DNA of 64,000 nt from NCBI GenBank assembly GCA_017561885.1, contig JAFZBF010000026.1:1-64000 (forward strand). The letters are read 5' to 3'. Made by a program: the position numbers and the translations under genes. This stretch comes from Bacteroidales bacterium (GTDB taxonomy: Bacteria; Bacteroidota; Bacteroidia; Bacteroidales; UBA932). Below the pieces are notes generated by a model that saw only the letters and a program-made list of their open reading frames with translations, was not told the origin of the DNA and ran no database searches. Position 1 is the stretch's first letter. Each line of letters begins with the position of its first letter. Below, in pieces: positions 13,658-32,443 of the stretch.

Positions 13658-14748
13658 AGCATAGACACGAAGCGGTTGAACAGATACATAGTGTCCAGAG
13701 GGCCGCTCGAGGCCTCCGGGTGGAACTGCACGGAAAAGAAGGGCCGGCTGCGATGCCTTATTCCCTCGTTGGTTCCGTCGTTAAGGTTGATGAAGAGCGG
13801 TTCCCAGTCGGCAGACAGCGTCTTTTCATCAACCGCATAGCCGTGGTTCTGGGAAGTTATGAAGCAATGGTCGCTGCCCACCATCCTTACCGGCTGGTTG
13901 TGGCCGCGGTGGCCGTAACGAAGCTTGTATGTCCGGCCTCCCGCTGCCTTTGCAAGCAGCTGGTTGCCCATGCATATACCGAACACAGGCTTTCCGATAT
14001 TCATCGTCTGCCTGATATGTTCCACTGCTGCATCGCAGTAATCGGGATTGCCGGGACCGTTCGAGATGAAAAGGCCGTCATAACCGTTCATACCGGGGTC
14101 GGCATTGAAATCGTAGTCCCAGGGAACGCGGATTACCTCGACTCCTGTCTTCAGCAGGCAGCGGATTATGTTGTGCTTGACTCCGCAGTCCACAAGCACG
14201 ACCTTCCTGTCTGCGCCTGCGTTATAGCGGATGACCTCCTTGCAGGAAGCCACCGCCACAAGGTTGGTGACGTTCGGGTCATCGAACGGCAAGGGTTCGG
14301 CATCTTCCTGCACCAGCCGGCCCGGCATCGAGCCGTTCTCACGCAGGATCTGTGTCAGGCGGCGGGTGTCCACTCCCCAGATTCCGGGAATGCCCTGCTC
14401 TTTGAGCCATCCGTCAAGGCTCTTTGCCGCACTCCAGTGGCTGTAGTCAAAAGAAAGGTCAGAAATGATCAGTGCCCGTACGTGTATCGCTTCAGATTCG
14501 AAAGTCGCCTGAAGCCCGTCGGCATCGACGCGGCCGGCCGGGACTCCGTAGTTCCCGATGAGGGGATAGGTCACGCACAGCAGCTGGCCTTCAAACGACG
14601 GATCTGTCAGTGTCTCGGGGTATCCCACCATCGCAGTGGAAAAAACCGTCTCCCCGGCGGCTCCGGCAACGGCGCCGAAAGCATAGCCCGGGAACACCGT
14701 TCCGTCAGCCAGCTCAAGCCTGCACTTTCTGAAATCCGACAGCTTCAT
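13654..14748 (-). CDS. carA: Carbamoyl-phosphate synthase small subunit
   Basis: Glutaminase subunit that releases ammonia for CarB. The N-terminal CPSase domain (LELADGTVFPGYAFG, MVGYPETLTDPSF) precedes a class I amidotransferase domain with VLVDCGVKHNIIR, the nucleophile Cys in FGICMGNQLLA and FSVQFHPEASSGP. The 364 residues are normal. Its ATG shares one base with the glmS stop codon and its stop overlaps carB, so all three are translationally linked. Confidence 0.96.
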   Translation of the reverse strand: MKLSDFRKCRLELADGTVFPGYAFGAVAGAAGETVFSTAMVGYPETLTDPSFEGQLLCVTYPLIGNYGVPAGRVDADGLQATFESEAIHVRALIISDLSFDYSHWSAAKSLDGWLKEQGIPGIWGVDTRRLTQILRENGSMPGRLVQEDAEPLPFDDPNVTNLVAVASCKEVIRYNAGADRKVVLVDCGVKHNIIRCLLKTGVEVIRVPWDYDFNADPGMNGYDGLFISNGPGNPDYCDAAVEHIRQTMNIGKPVFGICMGNQLLAKAAGGRTYKLRYGHRGHNQPVRMVGSDHCFITSQNHGYAVDEKTLSADWEPLFINLNDGTNEGIRHRSRPFFSVQFHPEASSGPLDTMYLFNRFVSML

Positions 14749-16628: not shown

Positions 16629-16652
16629 ATATGTTATCCTTTTTCATATTAT

Positions 16653-18053
16653 CTATCTTGTATCCTGTCCGTGCAGGGCCGTGGGATACTTTCCGTCGAA
16701 ACAGGCCAGACACAGGTCGCTGCAGCGGCCGGCCGCCATCATCCCCTCCTCGGACAGGAAAGCCAGTGAATCGGCTTCGATCATCGTCCTCACCTCTTCC
16801 ACAGACTTGCGGGCGCTTATGAGTTCGTCCTTGCTCTTGATGTCTACTCCGTAGAAGCAGGGATTGCGCAGCGGAGCGCTGGCTATCCGTACATGGACCT
16901 CGGAAGCGCCGGCCTCGCGCAGCATCCTTACGATGCGCATCGAAGTGGTTCCCCGTACTATCGAATCGTCTATCAGCACCACTCTCCTGCCGCTCACCAC
17001 ACTCTTAACCGCCGACAGTTTCATACGGACACCCTTGTCCCGCAGGGCCTGGGACGGTTCTATGAAAGTACGTCCCACATATTTGCTCTTGATGAGCCCC
17101 ATCTCATACGGAAGTCCGCCTGCTTCGGCATATCCCATGGCTGCACTCAGGCTGCTGTCCGGCACACCCACTACTATGTCGGCATCAGCGGGGGCCTCTG
17201 AGAAAAGTATCCTTCCCGACTCCTTGCGGTATGAATGCACGTTGCAGCCTTCGAGATCGCTGTCCGGCCTGGAGAAATAGACATATTCCATCGCACACAT
17301 AGCGTGGCGGCACTCAGTTGCAAAGAAACTGCTTCGCAGACCGTGCCTGTCGATGGTCACTATCTCTCCCGGAGCGACGTCCCTGACGAATGTCGCTCCG
17401 ATTACGTCGAAGGCACAGGTTTCGCTCGCCACCACATACCCTCCGTTGTCAAGCCTGCCTATCGAGAGCGGCCGCAGGCCGTTGCTGTCGCGGCAAGCAT
17501 ATATCCTGTTGGCAGTCATCACGAGGAAGGCGAAAGCCCCCTCTATCTGTTTCAGGGCGTCTATCAGATTGTATATCCTCGGGCGGCTGTTGCCTGCAGG
17601 AGTCTTCTTGATGAGGTGAGCCAGTATTTCGCTGTCAGACGATGTCTGGAACAGGCTGCCGGTACTTTCGAGCATGGCGCGCAATTCCACGTAGTTCACG
17701 AGATTGCCGTTATGGGCCAGCGCGAAGTCACCGGTACCGTGCCTGAAAAGGAAGGGCTGGACGTTTTCAAGCACGTCCGCCCCTGTGGTGGCATATCTGA
17801 CGTGGCCGATAGCCATATCTCCCCTCAGCCTCGCAATCCTGGCTTCGTCGAAAACCTCGTGGACAAGTCCTTCACCCTTCTGGCAGAACAGTTCGCCGTT
17901 CTCATCAGCGGTGACTATGCCGCAGCCTTCCTGGCCGCGGTGCTGCATGGAATGCAGACCGTAATATGTCATCTCTGCGGCTTCCGGCGATCCGTAGATG
18001 CCGAACACGCCACATTCTTCATGCAAGGACCTGTCTTCGTAAGTTTCGTCCAT
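16653..18053 (-). CDS. purF: Amidophosphoribosyltransferase
   Basis: First committed step of purine synthesis (PRPP plus glutamine to phosphoribosylamine). A 13-residue propeptide precedes Cys14 (LHEECGVFGIYG), the nucleophile exposed after processing, as in the Bacillus-type enzyme. The phosphoribosyltransferase motif is VVLIDDSIVRGTT. Cysteines in ECRHAMCAMEYVYFSRPDS and in the C-terminal CSDLCLACFDGKYPT fit the [4Fe-4S] class. Because that class is oxygen-labile in Bacillus, this suggests anaerobic life. 466 residues; 6 nt from asnB. Confidence 0.95.
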   Translation of the reverse strand: MDETYEDRSLHEECGVFGIYGSPEAAEMTYYGLHSMQHRGQEGCGIVTADENGELFCQKGEGLVHEVFDEARIARLRGDMAIGHVRYATTGADVLENVQPFLFRHGTGDFALAHNGNLVNYVELRAMLESTGSLFQTSSDSEILAHLIKKTPAGNSRPRIYNLIDALKQIEGAFAFLVMTANRIYACRDSNGLRPLSIGRLDNGGYVVASETCAFDVIGATFVRDVAPGEIVTIDRHGLRSSFFATECRHAMCAMEYVYFSRPDSDLEGCNVHSYRKESGRILFSEAPADADIVVGVPDSSLSAAMGYAEAGGLPYEMGLIKSKYVGRTFIEPSQALRDKGVRMKLSAVKSVVSGRRVVLIDDSIVRGTTSMRIVRMLREAGASEVHVRIASAPLRNPCFYGVDIKSKDELISARKSVEEVRTMIEADSLAFLSEEGMMAAGRCSDLCLACFDGKYPTALHGQDTR

Positions 18054-18059
18054 TATCTG

Positions 18060-19721
18060 TCAATATGCATTGTTGTGCACTCCTACAGCACGTCCGCTGG
18101 GGTCGTTCATGCCTGCGAAAGCTGCATCCCACTTCAGGGCCTCGGCAGTCGAGCAGGCCACGCTGGGAACGCTCGGCACAGACCTGGCAGCCGACTCGCT
18201 CGGGAAATGCTCCGCAAATATACATCTATAGTAGTATTCTTCTTTATTATGCGGCGGATTTACCGGAAAACGTTCGGCGGCGGCAGCCATTTCGCTGTCC
18301 GACACTTTTGTTTCGACAAGGGCCTTAAGGCTGTCTATCCAGGAATATCCTACTCCGTCTGAGAACTGTTCCTTCTGCCTCCACAGTATGTCCTGTGGCA
18401 GCATATCTGCGAAGGCCTCCCTGAGGATGCGCTTCTCTATCTCTCTGCCGGGGCACATCTTCGCCTTAGGGTCGAGACGCATTGCCACGTCGAGAAACTC
18501 CTTGTCGAGGAAGGGAACCCTGCCTTCGACACCCCAGGCCATCAGCGACTTGTTGGCCCTGAGACAATCGTAGAGATGCAGCTTGTCGAGCTTGCGCACA
18601 GTCTCCTCGTGGAAAGACTGCGGATCCGGGGCCTTGTGGAAATAGAGATATCCACCGAACACTTCGTCGGCGCCCTCGCCGCTGAGGACCATCTTGATGC
18701 CCATACTCTTGATCACCCTAGCAAGCAGGAACATAGGCGTGCTGGCACGGACTGTAGTTATGTCATAGGTCTCAATGTGATAGATCACGTCTCGCAGCAC
18801 GTCGAGACCTTCCTGCACAGTGTAGTTTATCTCATGATGGACGGTGCCTATGTATCCGGCCACCTCGCGGGCCCTCTCCAGGTCGGGCGCACCCTTGAGC
18901 CCTATCGCGAAAGAGTGGAGCTGCGGCCACCATGCATCGTGGACGTCGTCGGTCTCGATACGTTTCCTGGCGTATTTCTTTGCAATGGCTGATATGATAG
19001 AGCTGTCCAGGCCGCCTGAGAGCAGCACTCCGTAGGGCACGTCGCTCATCATCTGTCGCTTCACTGCAGAGAGCAGCGACACGCGCAGGTCGTCGAGGTC
19101 GACGGGATTGTCCCGGACCGCTTCATAGTCCATCCAGTCGCGCTTGTACCATCGCGTCATCTGGTTGTCCTTGCTGTAGTAGTAATATCCTGGAGGGAAC
19201 GGACGATAGGTGTCGCACTGACCCTCGAGAGCCTTAAGTTCGCTGGCCACATACACCCTGCCTTCTGTGTCCGAACCGATATAGAGCGATTCCACACCGA
19301 TAGGGTCACGGGCTATCAGGAATGAATCATCCTCTTCGTCATAAAGGGCGAAGGCGAAAATGCCGCTGATATCTTCCAGGAAGTCTATGCCTTTCATCTT
19401 GTAGAGGGCAAGGATTACCTCGCAGTCCGAGCCTGTCTGGAACTCGTACAGTCCTTTCATAGCCTCGCGGATAGCCTGGTGGTTGTATATCTCGCCGTTC
19501 ACTGCAAGCACCTGCTTGCGGTCGGGAGAGAACAGAGGCTGCCGTCCCGACTGGGGGTCTACGATCGACAGACGTTCATGGGCGAGGATGCAGCTGCCCC
19601 CGCACCAGATGCCGCTCCAGTCCGGGCCTCTGTGGCGAAGTTTACGTGACATCCGGAGCGCCTTCTCCCTGAGTTCCGGGGTCTGTTCCTTTATGTTGAA
19701 TATTCCTGTGATTCCGCACAT
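18060..19721 (-). CDS. asnB: Asparagine synthase B, glutamine-hydrolysing
   Basis: Converts aspartate to asparagine with glutamine and ATP. Cys2 of MCGITGIFN begins the class II amidotransferase domain (LRHRGPDWSG, AHERLSIVDP, VNGEIYNHQ). The synthetase domain has the PP-loop VLLSGGLDSSIISAIA and VLSGEGADEVFGGY. The 553 residues equal the E. coli AsnB size. It lies between gltD (2-nt gap) and purF (6-nt gap) in the glutamine-centred run. Confidence 0.95.
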   Translation of the reverse strand: MCGITGIFNIKEQTPELREKALRMSRKLRHRGPDWSGIWCGGSCILAHERLSIVDPQSGRQPLFSPDRKQVLAVNGEIYNHQAIREAMKGLYEFQTGSDCEVILALYKMKGIDFLEDISGIFAFALYDEEDDSFLIARDPIGVESLYIGSDTEGRVYVASELKALEGQCDTYRPFPPGYYYYSKDNQMTRWYKRDWMDYEAVRDNPVDLDDLRVSLLSAVKRQMMSDVPYGVLLSGGLDSSIISAIAKKYARKRIETDDVHDAWWPQLHSFAIGLKGAPDLERAREVAGYIGTVHHEINYTVQEGLDVLRDVIYHIETYDITTVRASTPMFLLARVIKSMGIKMVLSGEGADEVFGGYLYFHKAPDPQSFHEETVRKLDKLHLYDCLRANKSLMAWGVEGRVPFLDKEFLDVAMRLDPKAKMCPGREIEKRILREAFADMLPQDILWRQKEQFSDGVGYSWIDSLKALVETKVSDSEMAAAAERFPVNPPHNKEEYYYRCIFAEHFPSESAARSVPSVPSVACSTAEALKWDAAFAGMNDPSGRAVGVHNNAY

Positions 19722-19723
19722 AG

Positions 19724-21067
19724 CTATTTCTTCTTGAGATATCCGTCAATCTGCGATGCGGCCTGCCTGCCGGAAGCCAGGGCACGTACGACAAGGCTTG
19801 CACCGCTGGCAGCATCTCCCGCGAGGAAGACATTGTCAGCAAGGGGTTTGTGCTCGGGCTTGAGGAAGCCCATAGCAAGCAGGACCATATCGCATTCTAT
19901 TATTTCTTTCTTTCCGTCGAGTTTCATGACCGGGCGGCCGCCTTGCGGATTCGGCTCCCAGATGACACCTTCCACCTCAACGCCGGTCAGATGCCCGTCC
20001 TTTCCGATGAAACGGTTCGAGTTGAGAAGCCAGCGGCGCGTACAGCCTTCGTGGTGCGAAGAGCTGGTGCGCTTGATGTTGGGCCACATCGGCCAGGGAG
20101 TGGCCGGGTTGTATCCCTCAGGAGGTTCGGGCATGATCTCGATCTGGCAGACGTCAGTAGCACCCTGGCGGATGACGGTTCCGATGCAGTCTGAGCCGGT
20201 GTCGCCGCCGCCTATGACAAGCACTTTCTTGCCCTTGGCGCTTATGCGCTCTTCGTCGCTGAACTGCTGCCCGGCAAGCACACGGTTCTGCTGACTCAGC
20301 AGCTGAAGGGCCAGATAGATACCTTTCAGTTCGCGGCCCTCTATCTTGAGGTCGCGTGCAGTCGGAGTACCGGTGCAGATGGCATATGCGTCATAGCCTT
20401 CGGGCAGTTTGTCTTCTTCTATCGTCTGTCCGTAGAGGAATCTGATACCTTCGGCCTCCATCAGCCTGATACGCCTGTCGATGACAGACTTGTTCAGCTT
20501 GAAGTTGGGAATGCCGAAACGCAGCAGTCCGCCGGCAGCCTCGTTCTTGTCATATACAGTGACTTCGTAGCCCATCTTGTTCAGCTGGCTGGCTGTCGAC
20601 AGGCCAGAAGGGCCGGCGCCGATCACAGCCACCTTCATTCCGTTGCGCTTGTATTCGTTGACGGGCACATAGCCCTCCAGGAACGCTCTTTCGATGATTG
20701 CGCACTCGTTCTCACGGCAGGTCACTGGTTCGTTTATAGTCAGGTTCAACACGCAGCTCTTCTCGCACAGGGCGGGACATATGCGTCCGGTGAACTCCGG
20801 GAAATCGTTTGTCAGGGAAAGGATCTTGTAGGCCTTCTCCCATTCCCCTTTGTAGAGGGCGTCCTGCCATTCCGGCTGCTTGTTGCCGAGCGGGCAGGCC
20901 CAGTGGCAGAACGGCACGCCGCAATCCATACAGCGGGAAGCCTGGAGCTGACGGTCCCTTGAATTGAGGGTCTGCTCGACCTCTCCGAAATCGCGTATCC
21001 TGTCGGCTACGGCACGGTAGCCAGCCTCGATGCGAGGCACACTCATAAATGCTTTAGGATCTCCCAT
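19724..21067 (-). CDS. gltD: Glutamate synthase small subunit
   Basis: NADPH-oxidising beta subunit of GOGAT that passes electrons to GltB. The N-terminal cysteine clusters CMDCGVPFCHWACP and CPALCEKSC bind [4Fe-4S] centres. FAD site GAGPSGLSTASQL and NAD(P)H site VIGGGDTGSDC follow. An upstream in-frame TTG at 21094 would lie inside gltB. ATG 21067, 4 nt after the gltB stop, is preferred and gives 447 residues starting MGDPKAFMSVPR. Confidence 0.94.
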   Translation of the reverse strand: MGDPKAFMSVPRIEAGYRAVADRIRDFGEVEQTLNSRDRQLQASRCMDCGVPFCHWACPLGNKQPEWQDALYKGEWEKAYKILSLTNDFPEFTGRICPALCEKSCVLNLTINEPVTCRENECAIIERAFLEGYVPVNEYKRNGMKVAVIGAGPSGLSTASQLNKMGYEVTVYDKNEAAGGLLRFGIPNFKLNKSVIDRRIRLMEAEGIRFLYGQTIEEDKLPEGYDAYAICTGTPTARDLKIEGRELKGIYLALQLLSQQNRVLAGQQFSDEERISAKGKKVLVIGGGDTGSDCIGTVIRQGATDVCQIEIMPEPPEGYNPATPWPMWPNIKRTSSSHHEGCTRRWLLNSNRFIGKDGHLTGVEVEGVIWEPNPQGGRPVMKLDGKKEIIECDMVLLAMGFLKPEHKPLADNVFLAGDAASGASLVVRALASGRQAASQIDGYLKKK

Positions 21068-21071
21068 AACG

Positions 21072-24000
21072 TCATTCTGCTTTAATTTCGGCAAGCTTGT
21101 CCTGCAGCTTGCGCAACTGTTCTTCTTTCAATACCCTTTTGTATTCAATCGGGATAACCTGTATGAATTCGCCGGCGAAGTGATTCCAGTCGTCGAGCAT
21201 GGTGCGGGCGAGCTTCGAGCCGGAATAGAGCCAGTGCCTGCGGATGAGGTCGTGCAGCTCGTTGCGGTAGCTCGACTCCTCTATGAGGCTCAGTTCCACC
21301 ATATCCATATTGCAGAAATAGTCGAACTTGTGGGTCGGGTCCCACACATAGGCGATACCGCCGCTCATACCTGCAGCAAAATTGCGGCCCGTGGTTCCGA
21401 GCACCACCACCCTGCCGCCTGTCATATATTCGCAGCAATGGTCCCCGGCGCCCTCGACAACCGCGATGGCACCCGAGTTTCGCACGGCGAAACGTTCGCC
21501 GACGCAGCCGTTGATGTACATCTCACCTGCCGTTGCGCCGTACAGGCCGGTATTGCCTGCAATCATATTGTGCTCGGCGACGTAGGTACTGCGCATCGGA
21601 GGCATGATGGCAATCCTGCCGCCTGACAGGCCCTTGCCGAAATAGTCGTTGGTCTCGCCTTCGAGTTTCAGGTTCACGCCTCTTGCGAGGAATGCACCGA
21701 ACGACTGGCCGGCCGAGCCCTTGAAATAGATATTGATCGTAGAATCCGGCAGTCCGTCCGCACCGTATTTCTCAGCTATCATTCCTGAGAGCATGGTGCA
21801 GCAGGCACGGTCGGTGTTACGTATGTCGTAGTTCAGGTTGACTTCCCTGCCGCTTTCAAGGGCGGGAGCCGCAGCAGCGATGATCTCACGGTCCTTGACG
21901 CTGCCAACGGCGGTGAAAGGTCTGCCGTCCCAGTGCAGGTCGCAGCCTTCCACACGGTGGAGCAGCCTGCTGAAATCGAGAGTCGACTGCTTCGATCCGG
22001 CGGCGACCGGCTTCATCTCCACGAGGTCGGTGCGGCCGATGATGTCGTCCAGCTTGCGGAAGCCCATTTCGGCAAGATACTCGCGCACTTCCCTTGCCAG
22101 GAAGGTGAAATAGTTCACGATATACTCGTAGCGGCCGCGGAAGCGCTTGCGCAGCTCAGGATCCTGGGTGGCGACACCCACCGGGCAGGTGTTTGTGTTG
22201 CATTTGCGCATCATCACGCAGCCCAGCACGATCAGCGGCAGCGTTCCGAAACCGAATTCGTCAGCTCCGAGAAGCGCCATAAGGATGACATCGCGGCCGT
22301 CCTTGATCTGGCCGTCGGTCTGCAGGCGCACCTTGCCGCGCAGGCCGTTCAGGGCCAGTGTCTGCTGAGCTTCGGCGAGGCCGATCTCCGGAGAGATTCC
22401 CGCAAAGCGCATCGACGACACAGGAGACGCACCGGTACCGCCCTCGGCACCGGAAATGACAATGATGTCGGCGTTCGCCTTGGCCACTCCTGCAGCCACG
22501 GTGCCCACTCCGCTCTCTGCTACCAGTTTCACGCTGACAGCCGCCTTCGGATTGACGTTCTTAAGGTCGAAGATCAGCTGTGAGAGGTCTTCGATCGAAT
22601 ATATGTCATGGTGAGGCGGAGGAGAGATCAGGGAGATGCCCGGAATGGAGTTGCGGGTCTTGGCTATGATCTTGTCGACCTTGAAGCCGGGAAGCTGGCC
22701 TCCCTCGCCGGGTTTTGCACCCTGGGCCACCTTGATCTGAATCTCCTGTGCGTTCACGAGGTATTCCGCAGTCACTCCGAAACGTCCTGAAGCAATCTGC
22801 TTCGTCTTCGAACTCAGCGATATTCCATCGACTTCGCTGTGGTAGCGGGCGTTGTCCTCGCCTCCCTCTCCGGTGTTGCTGCGGGCTCCGAGTTTGTTCA
22901 TCGCCAGCGCAATCGCTTCGTGAGCCTCGATAGAGATGGCACCGAACGACATCGCTGCCGTCACGAAATGCTTCACTATGCTCTCTTCAGGCTCGACTTC
23001 CTCTATCGGCAGGGGCGTCGCAGCTTTCTTGAAGTCCATGAAGTCACGCAGGAATGCCGGCTGGGGCTTGTTGTCGACATATGAAACGAATTCCTTGTAT
23101 TTCTTGTAGTCGCCAGTACGTGTGGCAATCTGCAAAGTAGCAATGGTCATAGGGTTCCAGGCGTGCTGGATGCCGTCCTTGCGGTATGCGAAAAGACCGG
23201 TGTTCGGCAGCAGAGAATCTGCCGACGCCTTCTGCCCTGCCTCCATGAGTCGTACCGCATCGGCAGCAATCTCCTTGAGGCCGATGCCGCCTACGGTCGA
23301 CACTTCAGTACCGAAATATGTGTGCAGAAGGGATTCTCCGAGGCCGATGCTTTCGAATATCATCGCACCGCGATATGAGCGGATGGTAGATATTCCCATC
23401 TTCGACATAATCTTGTAGAGACCCTTGCATACTGCCTTGATGTAGTTGTGTTCCGCAGTCTTGTAATCTTCCTGTATGACGTGTTTCTTCACCAGGTCGT
23501 CAAGCACCGCGAAGGTCATATAAGGGTTGATGGCTGATGCGCCGTATCCCAGCAGCAGCGCTGCGTGCATCACTTCGCGGATCTCGCCGCTCTCGACGAT
23601 CAGCGCTGTCTGGACCCTCTTTCCTGCAGCGATCAGATAGTGATGGACTGCAGAAACGGCCAGCAGGCTCGGTATCGCAGCCCGGCCCGGAGCTATGTCA
23701 CGGTCTGACAGGATGATATAGTTGATGCCCTTGTCCACGCTCGCGGCTGCCTTGCGGCAGAGGTCTTCCAGCGCATCTCGCAGGCCGTCCCCGCCACGTG
23801 CGGCTTCAAATGACATATTCAGTTTCTCGGTATAGAAACCTTTGTAACGGATGTTGCAGAGGATGTCCAGCTGCGTGTTGTTCAGGATGGGATGCGGCAG
23901 GCGCACCATCTTGCAGTTGCTCTCGTCCGGCGTAAGGATGCCGTTGCCCACGCAGCCTATGTATTCCGTAAGGGACATCACGAGTTCCTCGCGGATAGGG

Positions 24001-25556
24001 TCTATTGCAGGGTTCGTAACCTGGGCGAACTGCTGGCGGAAATAGTTGAAGAATATCTGCGGGCGGTCCGAGATCACGGCCAGAGGAGTGTCGTTACCCA
24101 TAGACGCCACGGGCTCGGAGCCGTTCACCGCCATAGGAATCAGAGTCTTGTCGATGTCTTCCTGGGCGAAGCCGAACGAAATCAGTTTGCCGGCATATCC
24201 TTCCACGGAGTTCTCCACCTTGCGGCCGCTCTTGAGATTCTCGAGCTGGATGCGGTTGTCCGCAAGCCATGCCTTGTATGGATGCTCGGCTGCCAGTTCG
24301 GCCTTCAGCTCGCCGTCATAATATACCTTGCCGTCTCCGGTGTCCACGAGCAGTATCTTGCCCGGTTCGAGCCTGCCTTTCTGCTTTATTTCGGCGGGGT
24401 CGAGTTCAAGCACTCCGACCTCCGAAGCCACGATCATATCGCCTCCGGCAGTTATCAGGTAACGGGCGGGGCGCAGGCCGTTGCGGTCAAGCATTCCGCC
24501 TATGTAGCGTCCGTCGGAGAACAGCAGGGCGGCGGGACCGTCCCAAGGTTCCATAAGGATCGAATGATATTCGTAAAAGGCCTTCAGGTCTTCGCTGATC
24601 GGGTTCTTTTCATTGAATGACTCGGGGACGAGCAGAGCCATGGCGTGAGGCAGCGAAAGTCCGGACATCACAAAGAACTCCAAGGCGTTGTCGAGCGATG
24701 CCGAGTCGCTCATATCTGGCTGTATTATGGGGCGCAGAGCGCTTATGTCGCCGAGCAGTCCGGTGTTGAGCACGCTCTCGCGTGCTTTCATCCAGTTGCG
24801 GTTGCCGCGTATTGTGTTGATCTCGCCGTTGTGGCAGAGGAAGCGGAACGGCTGGGCCAGAGGCCATGCCGGGAAGGTGTTTGTCGAAAATCTCGAATGC
24901 ACCAGCGCCAGGCTGGAAGTGAAATAGGCGTCGGTAAGGTCGCGATAGTATTCGCGCAGCTGCATACTGGTAAGCATTCCCTTGTAGACGATGCTGCGGC
25001 TCGACAGCGACACGACATAGAAGTCCTTGTCGGCGACGCGGTGCTCAATCTTCTTGCGGATGACGTAGAGCTTGCGCTCGAAATCCGGCATCTCGTCGGC
25101 TTTGACGCCAGTGATGAACACCTGCTTTATGGCAGGCTCGGTTTCACGGGCAGTCTCTCCGAGACATTCCGAATTTACAGGAACGTCCCTGACTCGCATC
25201 AGGGACAGTCCTTCGGCTTCGACAACGTCGATCATCGTCTCGAGTATGGCGTTCTGCCGCTGCTCATCCTTGGGCATAAACACCAGTCCGGTGCCGTAAT
25301 GCCCTTTCTCCGGAACCGGAATTCCGTTGAGCAATATGAATTCGTGTGGTATCTGGACCAGGATGCCGGCTCCGTCACCGGTCTTTCCGTCGGCGCCCTC
25401 CGCTCCGCGGTGACGCATGTTTTCGAGGACTTTCAGCGCAGATTCGACCAGAGCGTGGGACTTGTCGCCGTGGATGTTGGCGACCATTCCGATTCCGCAG
25501 GCATCGTGTTCGTAACTGCTGCTGTAAAGCCCTCCCTGCTGATGATATTCTTTCAT
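21072..25556 (-). CDS. gltB: Glutamate synthase large subunit
   Basis: Produces two glutamates from glutamine and 2-oxoglutarate; with glutamine synthetase it is the GS-GOGAT route of ammonia assimilation. The 1494 residues have a short propeptide, then Cys20 (YEHDACGIGMVANI) as N-terminal nucleophile. The class II amidotransferase, central, FMN-binding (GEGGEDNARY, GAKPGEGGQLPGFKV, GAEGGTGASP) and C-terminal beta-helix domains follow. The Fe-S Cys cluster is CVMMRKCNTNTCPVGVATQ. Length and order are normal for bacterial GltB. Confidence 0.97.
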   Translation of the reverse strand: MKEYHQQGGLYSSSYEHDACGIGMVANIHGDKSHALVESALKVLENMRHRGAEGADGKTGDGAGILVQIPHEFILLNGIPVPEKGHYGTGLVFMPKDEQRQNAILETMIDVVEAEGLSLMRVRDVPVNSECLGETARETEPAIKQVFITGVKADEMPDFERKLYVIRKKIEHRVADKDFYVVSLSSRSIVYKGMLTSMQLREYYRDLTDAYFTSSLALVHSRFSTNTFPAWPLAQPFRFLCHNGEINTIRGNRNWMKARESVLNTGLLGDISALRPIIQPDMSDSASLDNALEFFVMSGLSLPHAMALLVPESFNEKNPISEDLKAFYEYHSILMEPWDGPAALLFSDGRYIGGMLDRNGLRPARYLITAGGDMIVASEVGVLELDPAEIKQKGRLEPGKILLVDTGDGKVYYDGELKAELAAEHPYKAWLADNRIQLENLKSGRKVENSVEGYAGKLISFGFAQEDIDKTLIPMAVNGSEPVASMGNDTPLAVISDRPQIFFNYFRQQFAQVTNPAIDPIREELVMSLTEYIGCVGNGILTPDESNCKMVRLPHPILNNTQLDILCNIRYKGFYTEKLNMSFEAARGGDGLRDALEDLCRKAAASVDKGINYIILSDRDIAPGRAAIPSLLAVSAVHHYLIAAGKRVQTALIVESGEIREVMHAALLLGYGASAINPYMTFAVLDDLVKKHVIQEDYKTAEHNYIKAVCKGLYKIMSKMGISTIRSYRGAMIFESIGLGESLLHTYFGTEVSTVGGIGLKEIAADAVRLMEAGQKASADSLLPNTGLFAYRKDGIQHAWNPMTIATLQIATRTGDYKKYKEFVSYVDNKPQPAFLRDFMDFKKAATPLPIEEVEPEESIVKHFVTAAMSFGAISIEAHEAIALAMNKLGARSNTGEGGEDNARYHSEVDGISLSSKTKQIASGRFGVTAEYLVNAQEIQIKVAQGAKPGEGGQLPGFKVDKIIAKTRNSIPGISLISPPPHHDIYSIEDLSQLIFDLKNVNPKAAVSVKLVAESGVGTVAAGVAKANADIIVISGAEGGTGASPVSSMRFAGISPEIGLAEAQQTLALNGLRGKVRLQTDGQIKDGRDVILMALLGADEFGFGTLPLIVLGCVMMRKCNTNTCPVGVATQDPELRKRFRGRYEYIVNYFTFLAREVREYLAEMGFRKLDDIIGRTDLVEMKPVAAGSKQSTLDFSRLLHRVEGCDLHWDGRPFTAVGSVKDREIIAAAAPALESGREVNLNYDIRNTDRACCTMLSGMIAEKYGADGLPDSTINIYFKGSAGQSFGAFLARGVNLKLEGETNDYFGKGLSGGRIAIMPPMRSTYVAEHNMIAGNTGLYGATAGEMYINGCVGERFAVRNSGAIAVVEGAGDHCCEYMTGGRVVVLGTTGRNFAAGMSGGIAYVWDPTHKFDYFCNMDMVELSLIEESSYRNELHDLIRRHWLYSGSKLARTMLDDWNHFAGEFIQVIPIEYKRVLKEEQLRKLQDKLAEIKAE

Positions 25557-25566
25557 TTCTTATGGA

Positions 25567-27756
25567 TTAGCATACAAACAACAATTCACGATACTTGGGA
25601 AGCGGCCACAGTTTGTCGTCGACTATCTCTTCGAGCTTGTCGATGTCGTGGCGGATATCTTCCATCTTCGGAACTACGGTGTTGTAATATGCCATTGCCT
25701 TTTCATATTCGTCTTCAAGCACGTTTGCCACCTTGCGGGCTTCCACCAGCTGGTTTACACCTTCTTCTATGGCCTTCACGTGCCTTGCTATCTTCTTTAT
25801 GAGCTCTATGTTGGTCGAAGCCAGCTCGTCGGCCTCGTCGCCGAGGATTCCCTTCATCTTGTAGACATTGTCGATGAGTTCGCTCTGGTATGACGTAGCA
25901 ACCGGGATGATGTGGTTGATGGCCATATCTCCGAATATTCGGGCCTCGATCTGTATCTTCTTGGTGTACATCTCCCACTTTATCTCGGTGCGGGCCGCAA
26001 GCTCGGCCTTGTTCATCACGCCGGTGGTCTCGAACAGCTTGACGCTGTCGCTGCAGGTGTAGTGCTTGAAAATCTCCGGAGGGCAGGTCTCGCAGTCCAG
26101 GCCCCTGCGTGCAGCCTCGGCCTTCCATTCGTCTGAATAGCCGTTGCCGTCAAAGCGGATGGGCTTGCTGTACTTGATAAGTTTCTGGAGCTCCTTGATG
26201 ATGGCTTCCCTGGTGTCCATACCCTTGGCAACCATCTTGTCGACTGCGGCCTTGAAGTCCATCAGCTGCTCTGCAACGGCGGTGTTCAGGGCAATCATGG
26301 CGCTGGCGCAGTTCGCCTCAGAGCCTACTGCACGGAATTCGAAGCGGTTGCCCGTGAAAGCGAACGGCGAAGTACGGTTGCGGTCGGTGTTGTCGATCAG
26401 CAGCTCGGGAATCTGAGGCATGTCGAGCATCTTCTTGCCGGTCTTGCCTGCGATCTTGAACAGTTCGTCGCTCGACGACTTCTCAAGAGCGTCGAGCAGG
26501 CTGGTAAGCTGCTTGCCGAGGAAGCTTGATATGATTGCAGGCGGAGCCTCGTTGGCACCCAGCCTGTGCGCGTTGGTCGCACTCATTATGGATGCCTTGA
26601 GCAGGGCATTGTGGCGGTATACTGCGGTAAGGGTGTTGACCACGAAAGTCACGAACATCAGGTTGTCGGTCGGAGTCTTGCCGGGTGACATCAGACGGTG
26701 TCCGTTGTCAGTGCCGAGCGACCAGTTGTTGTGTTTTCCGGAACCGTTTACACCCTCGAAAGGTTTCTCGTGGAGCAGGCAGCGGAATCCGTGCTTGCGG
26801 GCCAGCTTGCGCATCAGCGTCATCACGAGCATATTGTGGTCGCATGACAGGTTGGTTTCCTCGAATATGGGAGCCAGCTCGTACTGGTTGGGAGCCACCT
26901 CGTTGTGACGGGTCTTGGTAGGGATGCCGAGTTTCATGGCCTCTATCTCGAGCTCCTTCATGAAGGCCTGCACCCTCTCGGGGATTGCGCCGAAATAGTG
27001 GTCGTCCAGCTGCTGGTTCTTTGCAGAATTGTGGCCCATCAGTGTGCGGCCGCTCATAAGCAGGTCGGGACGTGCTGCATACAGTCCTTCATCTACAAGG
27101 AAATACTCCTGCTCCCATCCGAGGTATGAATAGACCTTCTTCACTGCAGGGTCGAAATAGTGACATACGTCGACTGCAGCCTTGTCCACTGCGTGCAGGG
27201 CCTTCAGCAGAGGAGCCTTGTAGTCCAGAGCCTCTCCGGTGTATGAAATGAAGATGGTGGGGATACAGAGAGTGTCGTCCATCACGAATGCGGGTGACGT
27301 AGGATCCCAGGCAGAATAGCCCCTCGCCTCGAAGGTGGCGCGGATACCTCCGCTCGGGAACGAGCTGGCGTCAGGCTCCTGCTGTGCGAGCAGCTTGCCT
27401 TCGAACTCCTCCAGGACTCCGCCTTTTCCGTTGTGCTCGATGAAAGCGTCGTGCTTCTCGGCTGTAGTGTCGGTCAGGGGATGGAACCAGTGGGTATAGT
27501 GGGTTGCCCCCATATCCATAGCCCATTTCTTCATTCCTTCCGCTACCTTGTCGGCAAGGGCCCTGTCCATCACAGCCCCGTTTTCCATCACGTTTACCAT
27601 CTGGGCATAGACTTCAGACGGCAGATACTTGAACATTTTCTCTTTGTTGAATACGTTCTTTCCGAAGTACTCGTCAGGCCGTGTGTCCGGCAGTTTAACT
27701 CTCAGGGGATGTTTCTTGAAGGCCTCGCCCAGAACATCAAATCTCAAATAAGACAT
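25567..27756 (-). CDS. glnN: Glutamine synthetase type III, operon copy
   Basis: ATP-dependent amidation of glutamate to glutamine. The 729 residues far exceed GSI/GSII (about 350-470) and match the GSIII family first described from Bacteroides. Visible motifs are the N-terminal EYFGKNVFN block, HYTHWFHPLTD, QQEPDASSFPSGGIR, the ATP-binding VNGSGKHNNWS, and NRTSPFAFTGNRFEFRA with the active-site Glu. A C-terminal helical part follows (AYYNTVVPKMEDIRHDIDKLEE). A second GSIII gene at 45226-47412 is clearly diverged. This copy sits directly in front of gltB (10-nt gap), which makes it the likely main assimilatory enzyme. Confidence 0.96.
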   Translation of the reverse strand: MSYLRFDVLGEAFKKHPLRVKLPDTRPDEYFGKNVFNKEKMFKYLPSEVYAQMVNVMENGAVMDRALADKVAEGMKKWAMDMGATHYTHWFHPLTDTTAEKHDAFIEHNGKGGVLEEFEGKLLAQQEPDASSFPSGGIRATFEARGYSAWDPTSPAFVMDDTLCIPTIFISYTGEALDYKAPLLKALHAVDKAAVDVCHYFDPAVKKVYSYLGWEQEYFLVDEGLYAARPDLLMSGRTLMGHNSAKNQQLDDHYFGAIPERVQAFMKELEIEAMKLGIPTKTRHNEVAPNQYELAPIFEETNLSCDHNMLVMTLMRKLARKHGFRCLLHEKPFEGVNGSGKHNNWSLGTDNGHRLMSPGKTPTDNLMFVTFVVNTLTAVYRHNALLKASIMSATNAHRLGANEAPPAIISSFLGKQLTSLLDALEKSSSDELFKIAGKTGKKMLDMPQIPELLIDNTDRNRTSPFAFTGNRFEFRAVGSEANCASAMIALNTAVAEQLMDFKAAVDKMVAKGMDTREAIIKELQKLIKYSKPIRFDGNGYSDEWKAEAARRGLDCETCPPEIFKHYTCSDSVKLFETTGVMNKAELAARTEIKWEMYTKKIQIEARIFGDMAINHIIPVATSYQSELIDNVYKMKGILGDEADELASTNIELIKKIARHVKAIEEGVNQLVEARKVANVLEDEYEKAMAYYNTVVPKMEDIRHDIDKLEEIVDDKLWPLPKYRELLFVC

Positions 27757-27775
27757 AGCGGTAATATTTAATTGT

Positions 27776-28999
27776 TTACATATTCAGTTTCTTCAGCCTG
27801 CGGGCAGCTTCGACATAGGTCTCGCGGCTCCCGAAGGCAGTAAATCTCACGAATCCCTCTCCGGAAGGGCCGAAACCCGCACCGGGAGTGCAGATCAGGT
27901 GGGCATAGCGGAGCAGCACTTCGAAGAAGTCCCAGGAAGGCATCCCGCCTGGAGTCTTGACCCACAGGTATGGAGCGTCCGTGCCTCCGAAGGCCTTGAG
28001 ACCGATTTCTTCCAGGGCTCCTTTCAGATATGCTGCATTGCTCAGATAATATTCAATCGTGCTCCTTGTCTGACGGCGGCCTTCCTCGCTGTAGACTGCC
28101 TCCGCACCGCGCTGCGAAATGTAGCTGGCACCGTTGAACTTGGTGCACTGGCGGCGCTTCCAGAGTTCGTTCAACCTCACCTTGCGGTCACCTGCCTCCA
28201 CTGCAAGTTCGTCGGGAATCACCGCGAAGCCGCACCTTACGCCGGTGAAGCCTGCAGTCTTGGAGAACGACCGGAACTCAATGGCAACCTTCTTCGCCCC
28301 GTCTATCTCGTATATGCTGTGCGGCACGGCAGGGTTGGTGATGAAGGCTTCATATGCTGCATCATAGAGAATCAGCACGTCGTTTTCGAGAGCATATCCG
28401 ACCCACCCGGCAAGCTCGTCTTTCGTCAGCACGGTGCCCATTGGGTTGTTCGGGAAGCAGAGATACACCACATCAACCTTCTCTGAAGGCAGCTGCGGGA
28501 CGAAACCGTTCTCTTCCAGACAAGGCAGATATGTCAGGCCGTCCCACTTCGTACCGGTATAATCTCCTGCACGTCCGGCCATCGCATTGGAATCCACATA
28601 CACCGGATATACCGGATCGGTTACGGCAACACGGCCGCAGCCCAGAATATCCACGATGTTGCCGGTGTCGCTCTTGGCGCCGTCGCTTATGAAAATCTCG
28701 TCAGGGCTGACCTTCACCCCTCTGGAAGCGTAGTCGCCTGCGGCAATCGCCTTGCGGAGAAACTCATAGCCCTGCTCCGGACCGTAGCCGTGGAAGGTCT
28801 CGCTGCTTGCCAGCTCATCTACAGCCCTGTGCATAGCCTCGACAGCCGCAGGGCAGAGAGGCTGGGTGACGTCTCCGATGCCGAGGGAAATGACGTCGTC
28901 GACGGCCAGGGTCTGCCTGAAAGCCCTGGCCTTGGCGGCGATGGCGGCGAACAGGTAAGACCCGGGCAGCTTAAGGTAATTGTCGTTTATCCGTATCAT
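27776..28999 (-). CDS. dapL: LL-diaminopimelate aminotransferase
   Basis: PLP enzyme that converts tetrahydrodipicolinate directly to LL-diaminopimelate with glutamate, a shortcut of lysine and peptidoglycan synthesis. The 407-residue fold type I protein starts INDNYLKLPGSYLFAAI. It has GDVTQPLCPA and FPNNPMGTVLT, and its SFSKTAGFTGVRCG contains the PLP Lys. ISDGAKSDTGNI is typical of DapL rather than generic aspartate aminotransferases. It overlaps dapF by 4 nt, which supports the pathway assignment. Confidence 0.94.
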   Translation of the reverse strand: MIRINDNYLKLPGSYLFAAIAAKARAFRQTLAVDDVISLGIGDVTQPLCPAAVEAMHRAVDELASSETFHGYGPEQGYEFLRKAIAAGDYASRGVKVSPDEIFISDGAKSDTGNIVDILGCGRVAVTDPVYPVYVDSNAMAGRAGDYTGTKWDGLTYLPCLEENGFVPQLPSEKVDVVYLCFPNNPMGTVLTKDELAGWVGYALENDVLILYDAAYEAFITNPAVPHSIYEIDGAKKVAIEFRSFSKTAGFTGVRCGFAVIPDELAVEAGDRKVRLNELWKRRQCTKFNGASYISQRGAEAVYSEEGRRQTRSTIEYYLSNAAYLKGALEEIGLKAFGGTDAPYLWVKTPGGMPSWDFFEVLLRYAHLICTPGAGFGPSGEGFVRFTAFGSRETYVEAARRLKKLNM

Positions 29000-29808
29000 A
29001 CATCGAAAACTATTGTGCCGTTATACACTTCTACGGCGTCGCCGGTAAGGATCACCTCATCCCCGTACCAGCTCACCTTGACGCTGCCGCCGTCCATGAC
29101 AACCGTCTGCTCCCTGTCAAGCGCAAAACGCGATATGGCCGCAACAGTAGTCGCACAGGCTCCGGTGCCGCACGCCAGAGTTACCCCGGATCCTCTTTCC
29201 CATACCCTCATCCGGATACTTCCGTCGCCGAGCAGCTGGGCGAACTCGATGTTCGCAGCTGCAGGGAAGCAGGCGGCGTGTTCCAGCATTTTTCCGGCGA
29301 CCTCGGGCCTTACCGTCCCGATATCCTCGACGAAGATTACGTAATGAGGGTTGCCCATCGAAACGAAACTGCCGCGGAGCTCCTCGGGAATGACCGTCTC
29401 TTTACCGGGAAGGAACTGAGAACGGACAGCGAAAGAAGGAATTCCCATATTGACAGAGATTTCGCCGGTAGCATCGTCTATGTGGAGCATCCTGATACCC
29501 GATGCGGTCTCAAGAGTGATGTCGAAGTCATCGGCGTAGCCGTGGCTCGCGACATAATAGCCGATACAGCGCGCCGCATTGCCGCACATCATACCCTGAG
29601 ATCCGTCAGCGTTGAACATTTCCATCTTGAAATCGGCCTTGTCGGACGTGTTGATGAGAACGATTCCGTCAGCTCCTATCCCCTTGTGCCTGTCGCACCA
29701 GGTTCCGGCGAGCCTGGATGCATCGGCGGCGTGGAAATCCTGACCGTAGACATAGATGTAGTCATTGCCGGCCGCATGCATCTTCGTGAATTCAATCGTT
29801 CTTGCCAT
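28996..29808 (-). CDS. dapF: Diaminopimelate epimerase
   Basis: Interconverts LL- and meso-diaminopimelate. The two catalytic cysteines are in MMCGNAARCIGY and LACGTGACATTV; the N-terminus has FTKMHAAGNDYIYV. An in-frame TTG at 29829 lies inside the promoter -7 box (TAACTTTG), so ATG 29808 is the real start (270 residues). It is the first gene of the 21-kb minus-strand run. Confidence 0.95.
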   Translation of the reverse strand: MARTIEFTKMHAAGNDYIYVYGQDFHAADASRLAGTWCDRHKGIGADGIVLINTSDKADFKMEMFNADGSQGMMCGNAARCIGYYVASHGYADDFDITLETASGIRMLHIDDATGEISVNMGIPSFAVRSQFLPGKETVIPEELRGSFVSMGNPHYVIFVEDIGTVRPEVAGKMLEHAACFPAAANIEFAQLLGDGSIRMRVWERGSGVTLACGTGACATTVAAISRFALDREQTVVMDGGSVKVSWYGDEVILTGDAVEVYNGTIVFDV

Positions 29809-30056: not shown

Positions 30057-30524
30057 ATGGAAACAAACGAACTGATTGACTCGATCGACCGCAAGATCCT
30101 CAAGATAATTACACTCAATGCACGCGTTCCGTTCAGGGATGTAGCCGAACAGGTAGGCATTTCACGCACCTCGGTCCACCAGAGGGTGCAGCATATGACC
30201 GAGATCGGAGTCATCAAGAATTCCGGTTTCCACGTAAACCCCCAGAAACTCGGCTTCAATATGTGCGTCTATGTGGGCATCACCCTGGAAAAAGGCTCGC
30301 TCTACAACAGCGTAGTGTCGGAACTGGAGAAGATTCCTGAAATAGTGGAGTCACAGTACACCCTGGGCGCATACACCATCCTGATAAAGCTCTACGCCCA
30401 CGACGCGAACCACCTCATGGAACTTCTGAACGGCCGCATCCAGGAGATTCCGGGAGTCATCAACACCGAGACCCTCACCTCTCTCGACCAGCGGATCAAA
30501 CGCTCGGTTCCCATCGAGGATTGA
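30057..30524 (+). CDS. Lrp/AsnC family transcriptional regulator
   Basis: 155-residue regulator. The N-terminal winged helix-turn-helix (DSIDRKILKIITLNARVPFRDVAEQ, then VGISRTSVHQRVQHM) is followed by a RAM/AsnC ligand domain (VYVGITLEKGSLYNSVVSEL, VESQYTLGAYTILIKLYA, IPGVINTETLTSLD). Members form dimers to octamers and sense amino acids. Located between the dapF-pyrG operon and the PII-AmtB genes, it is a natural candidate regulator of one or both. That is inference from position only. Confidence 0.9.
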   Translation: METNELIDSIDRKILKIITLNARVPFRDVAEQVGISRTSVHQRVQHMTEIGVIKNSGFHVNPQKLGFNMCVYVGITLEKGSLYNSVVSELEKIPEIVESQYTLGAYTILIKLYAHDANHLMELLNGRIQEIPGVINTETLTSLDQRIKRSVPIED

Positions 30525-30553: not shown

Positions 30554-30575
30554 ATCGCTCTTATGGGCGATTTTA
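30554..30575 (+). terminator. Probable terminator after the Lrp/AsnC gene
   Basis: ATCGCTC pairs with GGGCGAT (seven pairs, one G-T) around a TTAT loop, followed by TTTTAT. It lies 30 nt after the regulator's stop codon. The stem is short, so termination may be partial. Confidence 0.45.
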
Positions 30576-30593
30576 TGTTATTATGACAACATT

Positions 30594-30614
30594 TTTGCCA
30601 ATTCTTTTGGCAAA
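30594..30614. promoter_or_regulatory. Palindrome overlapping the -33 element of the PII-AmtB leader promoter
   Basis: Perfect 8-bp arms TTTGCCAA (30594-30601) and TTGGCAAA (30607-30614) flank a 5-bp centre. The right arm contains the TTG placed 19 nt before the -7 box, so a bound dimer would compete with or contact RNA polymerase. This is the geometry of an operator for a helix-turn-helix dimer. Which protein binds is unknown; the adjacent Lrp/AsnC protein is one candidate. Confidence 0.5.
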
Positions 30615-30636
30615 TAGAAATTCGTTTGTATCTTTG
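30607..30636 (+). promoter_or_regulatory. Promoter of the leader-PII-amtB transcript
   Basis: TTG (30607-30609) and TATCTTTG (30629-30636) are separated by 19 nt and match the Bacteroidetes -33/-7 pattern. Transcription should begin near 30643, about 15 nt before the ATG of the Gln-rich leader frame and about 210 nt before the PII start codon. Confidence 0.65.
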
Positions 30637-30657
30637 CACCGTAAACAGAGACAGACG

Positions 30658-30771
30658 ATGTCCGCAGGTTTTGCAAATTTCACTGCTGTCCAGAACAGCC
30701 AGGCTCAGTTCCAGAATCAGAACCAGAATCAGGTTCCGTTTGCAATTCCTTTGGACCGGCAGGAAAGCTGA
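30658..30771 (+). CDS. Gln/Asn-rich 37-codon putative leader peptide
   Basis: Short frame starting MSAGFANFTAVQNSQ and ending PLDRQES. Eight of 37 residues are Gln, all encoded CAG, seven of them within codons 12-25, together with four Asn in alternation (QNQNQNQ). The frame follows a strong promoter by about 22 nt and is followed 29 nt later by an intrinsic terminator, then by the PII and ammonium transporter genes. Repeated codons for the regulated amino acid plus a terminator before the structural genes are the classic layout of a ribosome-mediated attenuator. The peptide has no signal sequence, membrane segment or domain I recognise. Alternative: an independent small protein with its own terminator, which would leave the PII gene needing its own promoter, and I see none there. 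Confidence 0.62.
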   Translation: MSAGFANFTAVQNSQAQFQNQNQNQVPFAIPLDRQES

Positions 30772-30811
30772 ACGACATAATCAGACTCAATAGAACAAAC
30801 AAGACTGGTCC
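30753..30811 (+). promoter_or_regulatory. Possible antiterminator pairing in the leader RNA
   Basis: GGACCGG (30753-30759, codons 32-34 of the leader frame) can pair with CTGGTCC (30805-30811), the 5' arm of the terminator, through seven pairs including one G-T. It imitates the terminator's own 3' arm (GGGCCGG). A ribosome stalled at the Gln cluster (30691-30732) would leave it free and favour read-through. A ribosome reaching the stop codon (30769) would cover it and allow termination. The helix is short and the loop is 45 nt, so this is a hypothesis. Confidence 0.4.
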
Positions 30812-30834
30812 TTTCAGGGCCGGTCTTTTTTTTT
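30801..30834 (+). terminator. Strong intrinsic terminator before the PII gene (attenuator)
   Basis: AAGACTGGTCC pairs with GGGCCGGTCTT over 11 pairs (two G-T) around the loop TTTCA. A run of nine T (30826-30834) follows. It lies downstream of the Gln-rich frame and 23 nt before the PII start codon, so transcripts for PII and AmtB starting at 30643 must read through it. Confidence 0.85.
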
Positions 30835-30856
30835 AATAACCAAAACTACTTGCACA

Positions 30857-31204
30857 ATGAAGAAAATTGAAGCCATTATCAGGAAGACCCGTTTCGACGA
30901 TGTCAAGGAAGCCCTCTTCGAGGCCGACATCAACTGGTTTTCTTATGCCGAGGTCAAGGCTATCGGCCAGGACCGTGAGGACAGAATCTATCGAGGCGTG
31001 ATGTACAGCACAGACATTATCTCCCGCATCGAGATAACCATCATCTGCCGAGACCAGTTCGTCCAGCCCGCGATCGACGCAATAATGGGCGCAGCCCGCA
31101 CCGGCAGCGTAGGAGACGGAAGGATATTCGTCAGCCCCGTGGACGACACCTGGTCGATCCGCACCGGTGAACACGGAGACACCGTTCTGGCAGACAAGAA
31201 GTAG
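30857..31204 (+). CDS. glnK: PII nitrogen regulatory protein
   Basis: 115-residue trimeric signal protein that senses ATP/ADP and 2-oxoglutarate and gates ammonium uptake. MKKIEAIIRKTRFDDVKEAL is the standard first strand and helix. The T-loop (about 36-53) includes YRG and a Tyr at position 50 aligned with the uridylylated Tyr51 of E. coli, but is one residue shorter with a different tip. The B- and C-loops are GAARTGSVGDGRIFV and IRTGEHGD. Linkage to amtB (21-nt gap) favours the GlnK type. Whether it is covalently modified cannot be told; no uridylyltransferase gene is in the window. Confidence 0.92.
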   Translation: MKKIEAIIRKTRFDDVKEALFEADINWFSYAEVKAIGQDREDRIYRGVMYSTDIISRIEITIICRDQFVQPAIDAIMGAARTGSVGDGRIFVSPVDDTWSIRTGEHGDTVLADKK

Positions 31205-31225: not shown

Positions 31226-32443
31226 ATGACAACAATAAATGGACTTGACACCGCGTGGGTATTGATCGCAGCAATGCTTGTGTTCTTCATGCAACCCGGA
31301 TTCGCACTTGTAGAGGCGGGCTTCACCCGCTCCAAGAACACTGCCAACATATTGATGAAGAACTTTGTGGACTTCATGATAGGCTCTTTCCTGTTCTGGA
31401 TGATAGGTTTCGGCCTCATGCACGGCAGCGGAAGCGGCTTCATCGGAGGCCTGCACCTTTTCGACTGGAAATTCATAGGAGATTCAAACATTCCGGCCGA
31501 ATGTACGCTGATTTTCCAGACCGTTTTCTGTGCGACAGCCGCCACGATCGTGTCCGGCGGAATGGCGGAGCGCACCAAATTTTCGATGTATATTCTGATT
31601 TCCATCATCATTTCGGTGGTCATCTACCCCATCGAAGGCCACTGGAGCTGGGGCGGCGGATGGCTCAGCGGACTGGGCTTCCACGATTTCGCAGGCTCAA
31701 CCGTGGTCCACTCCTGCGGCGGAGTCATCGCCCTGGCCGGAGCGATGGTGCTCGGTCCCAGAATCGGAAAATATTCCAAGAGCGGCCAGTCGCACGCCAT
31801 CCCGGGCCACAACCTGACATTCGGCGCACTGGGAGTTTTCATTCTCTGGTTCGGATGGTTCGGCTTCAACCCCGGTTCGCAGCTGGCAGCCGACGGCGCT
31901 GCCAACGCAATCGCCATATCCCACGTGATGTGCACCACCAATATGGCAGCTGCCACAGGCGGGCTTTCAGTCCTCTTCCTCACCTGGCTGGTGTACGGCA
32001 AGCCCTCTCTCTCACTGGTCTGCAACGGCATCCTGGCCGGCCTTGTTGGCATCACTGCCGGCTGTGACCTGGTATCTATAGGCGGCTCAGCCATCATCGG
32101 CGCAGTATGCGGCGTAGCAATGGTCGGCTCTGTGGCCCTGATCGACAAGGTCTGCAAGATCGACGACCCGGTCGGCGCAGTTTCAGTCCACGGCACCTGC
32201 GGAATCCTCGGCACCATATTGACTGGTCTGTTCGCCACCGAGGACGGCCTGTTCTACGGCGGCGGAATCCATTTTCTGGGCATTCAGACACTTGGAGTCC
32301 TTGCGACCGCAACATGGGCATTCTCGCTCGGTTTCATCACCTTCAAGGTGCTTGACAAGATCCACGGCATCCGCGTGGAGCCACGCATCGAAGAGGAAGG
32401 TCTCGACATCTACGAACACGGAGAGACCTGCTACAACAGTTGA
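31226..32443 (+). CDS. amtB: Ammonium transporter
   Basis: Amt/Rh family channel of 405 residues with about eleven membrane segments. It begins in the membrane domain (TAWVLIAAMLVFFMQPGFALVEAG) without a cleaved signal. DFAGSTVVHSCGG supplies the first conserved pore His and the structural Asp, and VSVHGTCGILGTI the second. GFNPGSQLAADG is another family block. The partner PII protein is encoded just upstream and presumably docks on the cytoplasmic C-terminal tail (GIRVEPRIEEEGLDIYEHGE). Expression should depend on read-through of the terminator at 30801-30834. Confidence 0.95.
   Translation: MTTINGLDTAWVLIAAMLVFFMQPGFALVEAGFTRSKNTANILMKNFVDFMIGSFLFWMIGFGLMHGSGSGFIGGLHLFDWKFIGDSNIPAECTLIFQTVFCATAATIVSGGMAERTKFSMYILISIIISVVIYPIEGHWSWGGGWLSGLGFHDFAGSTVVHSCGGVIALAGAMVLGPRIGKYSKSGQSHAIPGHNLTFGALGVFILWFGWFGFNPGSQLAADGAANAIAISHVMCTTNMAAATGGLSVLFLTWLVYGKPSLSLVCNGILAGLVGITAGCDLVSIGGSAIIGAVCGVAMVGSVALIDKVCKIDDPVGAVSVHGTCGILGTILTGLFATEDGLFYGGGIHFLGIQTLGVLATATWAFSLGFITFKVLDKIHGIRVEPRIEEEGLDIYEHGETCYNS

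Follow-up and report, generated by a model that had tools for sequence, protein, structure and literature searches.

RNA-level control of nitrogen-assimilation genes by glutamine is known from the glutamine riboswitches. These comprise the glnA and downstream-peptide RNAs (cited in PMC8632094) and resemble the locus described here in acting on the same kind of genes; however, their aptamer binds the ligand directly, whereas our leader is without an Rfam match, and neither a glutamine riboswitch nor a T-box covariance model found a match in the analysed stretch or in six related loci. Closer in design are the ribosome-mediated attenuators of Proteobacteria (trp, his, leu, ilv, thr, phe), in which the regulatory codons likewise match the operon product, and an antiterminator likewise competes with an intrinsic terminator in a race between ribosome and RNA polymerase (PMC1183508). 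Unlike these, our locus apparently senses Gln and Asn, has a Bacteroidota host and counts ammonium uptake with a P-II regulator among its targets. The attenuators of Actinobacteria and Firmicutes (trp, ilvB and leuS, and the his leaders before hisS and hisZ) were recognized by the same type of comparative evidence as is used here, namely repeated codons, terminator and antiterminator, and the two surveys that present them mention neither glutamine, asparagine nor Bacteroidetes (PMC1262725, PMC2965389).

Control of nitrogen assimilation in Bacteroidales is poorly known. In Prevotella ruminicola, transcripts of glnK, amtB and asnB change 38- to 69-fold with ammonium, in a direction that the paper reports inconsistently, and the consulted part of that paper offers no mechanism for the response (PMC5552732). 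A transcriptome paper on B. thetaiotaomicron goes no further than noting unvalidated short frames reminiscent of leader peptides. The initial annotation of our locus knew of no described glutamine leader peptide of this kind; likewise, we found no Gln or Asn leader peptide, nor any Bacteroidota amino-acid attenuator, in Rfam or the open-licence literature searched, an earlier description elsewhere being possible. A Gln/Asn leader-peptide regulon would extend amino-acid attenuation to this specificity and to the Bacteroidota, tie ammonium uptake to translation speed and offer, for one Bacteroidales lineage, an explanation concrete enough to test.

The leader upstream of glnK-amtB

The sequence examined, hereafter the window, is the whole 64,000-nucleotide stretch from a gut Bacteroidales bacterium (GCA_017561885.1, contig JAFZBF010000026.1). 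The elements of the locus are as follows:

30606-30636, plus strand: Bacteroidota-type promoter, with TTTG (-33) at 30606-30609 and TATCTTTG (-7) at 30629-30636
30658-30771, plus strand: leader peptide frame of 37 codons, with counterparts of variable flanks in relatives
30691-30732, plus strand: control region, codons 12-25, with seven CAG (Gln) and four Asn codons
30753-30759, plus strand: putative antiterminator 5' segment, GGACCGG, at the end of the leader frame
30801-30834, plus strand: intrinsic terminator, a 12-pair hairpin at 30801-30827 with nine T at 30826-30834
30805-30811, plus strand: putative antiterminator 3' segment, CUGGUCC, common to the terminator's 5' arm
30857-31204, plus strand: glnK, P-II signalling protein (PF00543 match)
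31226-32443, plus strand: amtB, ammonium transporter (PF00909 and TIGR00836 matches)

This arrangement of promoter, leader frame, terminator and glnK-amtB is the one claimed in the initial annotation, and it was confirmed in the window, including the clustering of seven CAG codons in a 37-codon frame and, through the P-II and ammonium-transporter family matches, the identities of the two genes. The frame translates to MSAGFANFTAVQNSQAQFQNQNQNQVPFAIPLDRQES followed by the stop codon. The promoter has the layout TTTG-N19-TATCTTTG, with TTTG beginning 23 nt 5' of TATCTTTG, and we infer a transcription start near 30640-30645. As annotated, 30753-30759 can pair with 30805-30811 in the terminator's 5' arm (7 bp, duplex -12.9 kcal/mol). 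For the terminator itself (-17.4 kcal/mol) the nine T were borne out, while the 11 pairs originally given become 12 when two A-U pairs are counted. Seven Gln in a given 14-codon window have a chance of ~6e-9 at the local Gln frequency, and no other 14-codon stretch with at least six Gln occurs in the six frames of the 64 kb. Directly 5' of the attenuator lies a gene for an AsnC/Lrp-family regulator (30057-30524). Since this gene has its own terminator-like hairpin (30554-30571), the terminator at 30801 is not simply its end.

We propose that the locus is, very probably, a ribosome-mediated transcription attenuator that senses Gln through the speed of leader translation, with Asn as a second and usually accompanying signal, a reading that draws on sequence comparison. 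A shortage of charged tRNA-Gln (or tRNA-Asn) would stall the ribosome on the cluster of CAG and Asn codons, a step linked to the charged-tRNA level by analogy with the known attenuators. Left uncovered by the stalled ribosome, 30753-30759 would pair with 30805-30811 while the terminator's 3' arm is still to be synthesized, and with this antiterminator in place RNA polymerase would read into glnK-amtB. When both amino acids are plentiful, the ribosome would go on to codon 31 and the stop codon and cover 30753-30759, allowing the terminator to form. Stalling thus probably turns these genes on when Gln or Asn is short, because similar switches precede Gln- and Asn-making genes in relatives.

The modelled geometry of the window is what a classical attenuator needs. 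We simulated a stalled ribosome, placing its A site at chosen codons of a nascent RNA that extends to 30813. The predicted probability of the antiterminator is 0.99 for CAG codon 25 and 0.6-0.99 for codon 23. The earlier codons of the cluster give anything from 0.03 to 0.99, depending on the codon and the assumed footprint: about 0.5-0.7 at codon 15, mixed or low values for stalls at codons 17-21, and only 0.03-0.1 at codon 19. A ribosome anywhere from codon 31 to the stop brings the probability to 0, and nascent RNA free of ribosomes forms the antiterminator at ~0.5. At equilibrium the terminator wins on the full-length RNA in every simulated state (0.97); therefore, the switch must be kinetic, i.e. 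decided during RNA synthesis. In one predicted fold of the window RNA the region at ~30682-30690 possibly pairs with the antiterminator segment; given the ~0.5 antiterminator of ribosome-free nascent RNA, this is no more than a tentative candidate for a protector or pause hairpin.

Conservation across Bacteroidales

Comparison of glnK upstream regions from the genus, family and order, together with named genomes, and the wider comparative search recovered ~35 such leaders in ~28 Bacteroidales genomes, twelve of them, the window's included, directly before glnK. They range from those of close relatives (e.g. MSNGIAILIAAQFGQNQNQNQNQVPLAIPLDRQES) to divergent glnK leaders in Bacteroidales UBA1189 (MLNSVVYITNIQLNNNQQQNNQNQNNQVQMVIPIDQSVS), a horse-feces genome (MMFFRNNQQQNQNQQQNCWLTC) and a rumen genome (MKEMIDIFTISANFKQQSQSESNNNSQNNLVSCPAGRIR); a DNA similarity search with the window element reached only the close relatives. 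Each of the twelve glnK leaders has a promoter-like motif just 5' and a terminator just 3', and -7 motifs comparable to that of the window lie 16-39 nt 5' of the leader ATG in 12/12 leaders compared. An ATG-frame scan found the Gln/Asn leader to be absent from most of the Bacteroidales glnK genes examined (Prevotella, Bacteroides, Tannerella and others); therefore, the element is not universal.

The leaders are ~21 to 40 residues long, and distant ones have unrelated flanks, their common features being Gln/Asn codons, antiterminator segment and terminator. Conserved Gln codons amid variable flanks are what the initial annotation had suggested seeking in relatives, and the pattern is the opposite of the objection it raised, i.e. 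a peptide retained without its Gln codons. Across 30 leaders, Gln is enriched 6.9-fold and Asn 5.6-fold over the window's proteins, with Ser next (1.4-fold) and all other residues at no more than 1.5-fold. This density is frame-specific in 12/12 leaders first compared, Gln plus Asn making up 0.25-0.52 of the frame as against 0-0.14 in the other frames. The original glutamine-sensing reading is thus supported, but Gln alone proved too narrow: Asn codons are also kept, and Asn is apparently sensed along with Gln, in most leaders. Four leaders before glnN are nearly Gln-only (Q7N1, Q8N1, Q7N2 and Q8N2). They are among those preceding glnN with no visible asnB, and all other leaders also carry Asn; as the four are partly related, the pattern is suggestive only.

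The Asn codons are themselves skewed. In leaders from 12 genomes (loci L001, L115, L116, L222, L224, L226, L227, L228, L229, L233, L235 and L240), 56 of 78 are AAT, where codon usage in neighbouring genes of the respective genomes predicts 29.8. This is about twice the expectation and runs contrary to the usual AAC preference of most of these genomes. The excess suggests selection on the codon and not on the residue alone; in theory, the choice among synonymous regulatory codons affects the sensitivity of an attenuator (PMC1183508). A test of codon positions was discarded as evidence, being circular for same-residue pairs.

Both helices were checked for covariation, as originally proposed, and the signal is strong for the terminator and moderate for the antiterminator; p-values from the covariation and permutation tests are optimistic because the sequences are related. 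In the terminator, 97.5% of cells are paired and 8/11 pairs changed on both sides (0/500 shuffles as high), so that the loss of conservation raised earlier as an objection is not seen. The antiterminator shows 74% pairing and six pairs with changes on both sides, its covariation score being equalled by 1/500 shuffles. Its own arms pair better than swapped ones (8/5000 permutations as good), a test weakened by a motif common to the leaders. Most antiterminator partners lie at about -24 to +14 relative to the stop codon. Within the eight close leaders alone the antiterminator is too conserved for a covariation signal (190/500 shuffles), and at L029, L115, L224, L228 and L232 the pairing is no better than in shuffles. 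Automated calling picked a wrong terminator at L227 and overlooked the one at L235; in well-called cases the terminator begins 22-58 nt past the stop codon, farther than a ribosome standing there would cover.

Several features of an attenuator are thus present. Codons for an amino acid that the downstream operon makes or is linked to are clustered in a short frame, an intrinsic terminator separates this frame from the first gene at a sufficient distance past the stop codon, and the regulatory codons are conserved in an otherwise variable peptide. A frame-end antiterminator, exclusive with the terminator and covered by a ribosome at the stop, is present too, on evidence weaker than that for the terminator, and is absent or unclear in a few leaders.

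Target operons and competing explanations

We ran a covariance model trained only on eight glnK leaders over 399 genomes of the family, the function of the target genes playing no part in the search and their identities being checked by family searches. The best full-length matches beyond the known ones again proved to be Gln/Asn-rich frames with terminators. They precede glnN (GSIII), alone or with gltB or asnB; asnB operons of the types asnB-glnK-amtB, asnB-glnN and asnB-glnN-gltB; glnK-amtB accompanied by gltB or asnB; an uncharacterised protein followed by glnK-amtB, one operon type being omp-glnK-amtB; and, in one case, a circularly permuted ATP-grasp operon. Single genomes carry up to three such leaders: G696 has three, each preceding an operon, and G525, from another family of the order, also has three, before glnN, protein-glnK-amtB and amtB-asnB. 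Together, these targets form the pathway making Gln and Asn from ammonium. The original assignment of glnK-amtB as target holds for the window, and in relatives the element also stands before glnN, asnB and gltB-containing operons, which on this comparative evidence constitute a predicted regulon for Gln, Asn and ammonium assimilation. Outside the family, the matches in G525 and G665 were true leaders on inspection, while those in G360, G556, G041, G611, G534, G518 and G350 were inspected and are not leaders; partial model matches (positions ~66-171, or the terminator alone) were mostly ordinary terminators and were left uncounted.

The frame might instead encode a functional Gln/Asn-rich small protein that has its own promoter and terminator, with glnK-amtB transcribed by read-through or from an unseen promoter and no sensing involved; small proteins do act on ammonium transport elsewhere, as in Methanosarcina mazei (PMC10714827). 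We consider this highly unlikely, since across leaders of such varied lengths and unrelated distant flanks the Gln/Asn content alone is conserved, the antiterminator segment is retained near the end of the frame, and the same element stands before different genes of one pathway. Moreover, a motif search found no second TAnnTTTG between 30640 and 30857, and the stretch from the terminator to glnK, which the initial annotation had considered as a possible site for a separate promoter, likewise holds no promoter motif. Still less credible is control of the terminator by an RNA that binds a metabolite or protein (a glutamine aptamer, a T-box or a site for the product of the adjacent AsnC/Lrp gene), the codons being incidental. 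The position of that gene directly 5' and the glutamine aptamers of other bacteria (cited within PMC8632094) speak for it; however, no Rfam family reaches its gathering score in the six related loci or comes near it in the window, and what distant leaders share is codons, antiterminator segment and terminator, with no conserved aptamer-like structure seen.

The least probable alternative, to which we give very little weight, is a response to a general slowing of translation, or to tRNA-Asn modification (queuosine at AAT), rather than to the supply of Gln and Asn. The strong over-use of the wobble-read AAT would fit such a response, but the operons targeted serve Gln/Asn synthesis and ammonium uptake in particular, and the four glnN leaders noted above are nearly Gln-only. 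Attenuation through Gln and Asn codons remains our preferred reading.

A Trp/Phe leader and neighbouring genes

A second candidate attenuator, a Trp/Phe-rich leader before a trpB-like gene, occurs in nine or more species of the genus to which the window belongs (L244, L245, L246, L248, L249, L251, L252, L253 and L256; ~200 nt 5' of the MATKRFIL start). Its core, FFFWRAWFW or FFFWRTWFW, is conserved (e.g. MNAQVNNFFFWRAWFWQSSVSVCASPSVQY) and is followed by a GGCTGGTC- or GGCCGGTC-type terminator similar to that of the Gln/Asn leaders; a simple duplex test gave no convincing antiterminator for it. The similar terminator suggests reuse of this architecture with a different set of codons. A broader proposition, for and against which we see the case as evenly poised, is that the attenuators of Bacteroidales are modular: the GGCYGGTC-type terminator would stay similar while the sensor codons change with the operon (Gln/Asn for glnK-amtB, glnN, asnB and gltB-containing operons, Trp/Phe for the trpB-like gene). 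Such a module would be a main nitrogen-control circuit of these gut bacteria and would read Gln and Asn jointly.

On the minus strand of the window, at 13654-29808, lies a tightly packed run of dapF, dapL, glnN (GSIII), gltB, gltD, asnB and purF-, glmS- and carA-like genes (dapF, dapL, gltD and the last three being named by inspection only). It includes several glutamine-using enzymes and forms one apparent operon divergent from the attenuator; the scan used found no Gln/Asn leader for its glnN-gltB-gltD-asnB genes. Model searches alone were used to look for further leaders in the genome that contains the window.

The Gln/Asn leader at L233, in G696, precedes the operon of the circularly permuted ATP-grasp protein with further genes and may mark a nitrogen-linked function for it. 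A protein of ~230 residues with a YVWRG motif recurs in glnK/amtB/asnB operons (L222:623-1309, L230 and L240:2444-3151). Its L222 copy has no Pfam or NCBIfam match, and it is possibly the counterpart of PRU_1977, the uncharacterised member of the glnK, amtB and asnB cluster of Prevotella ruminicola (PMC5552732).
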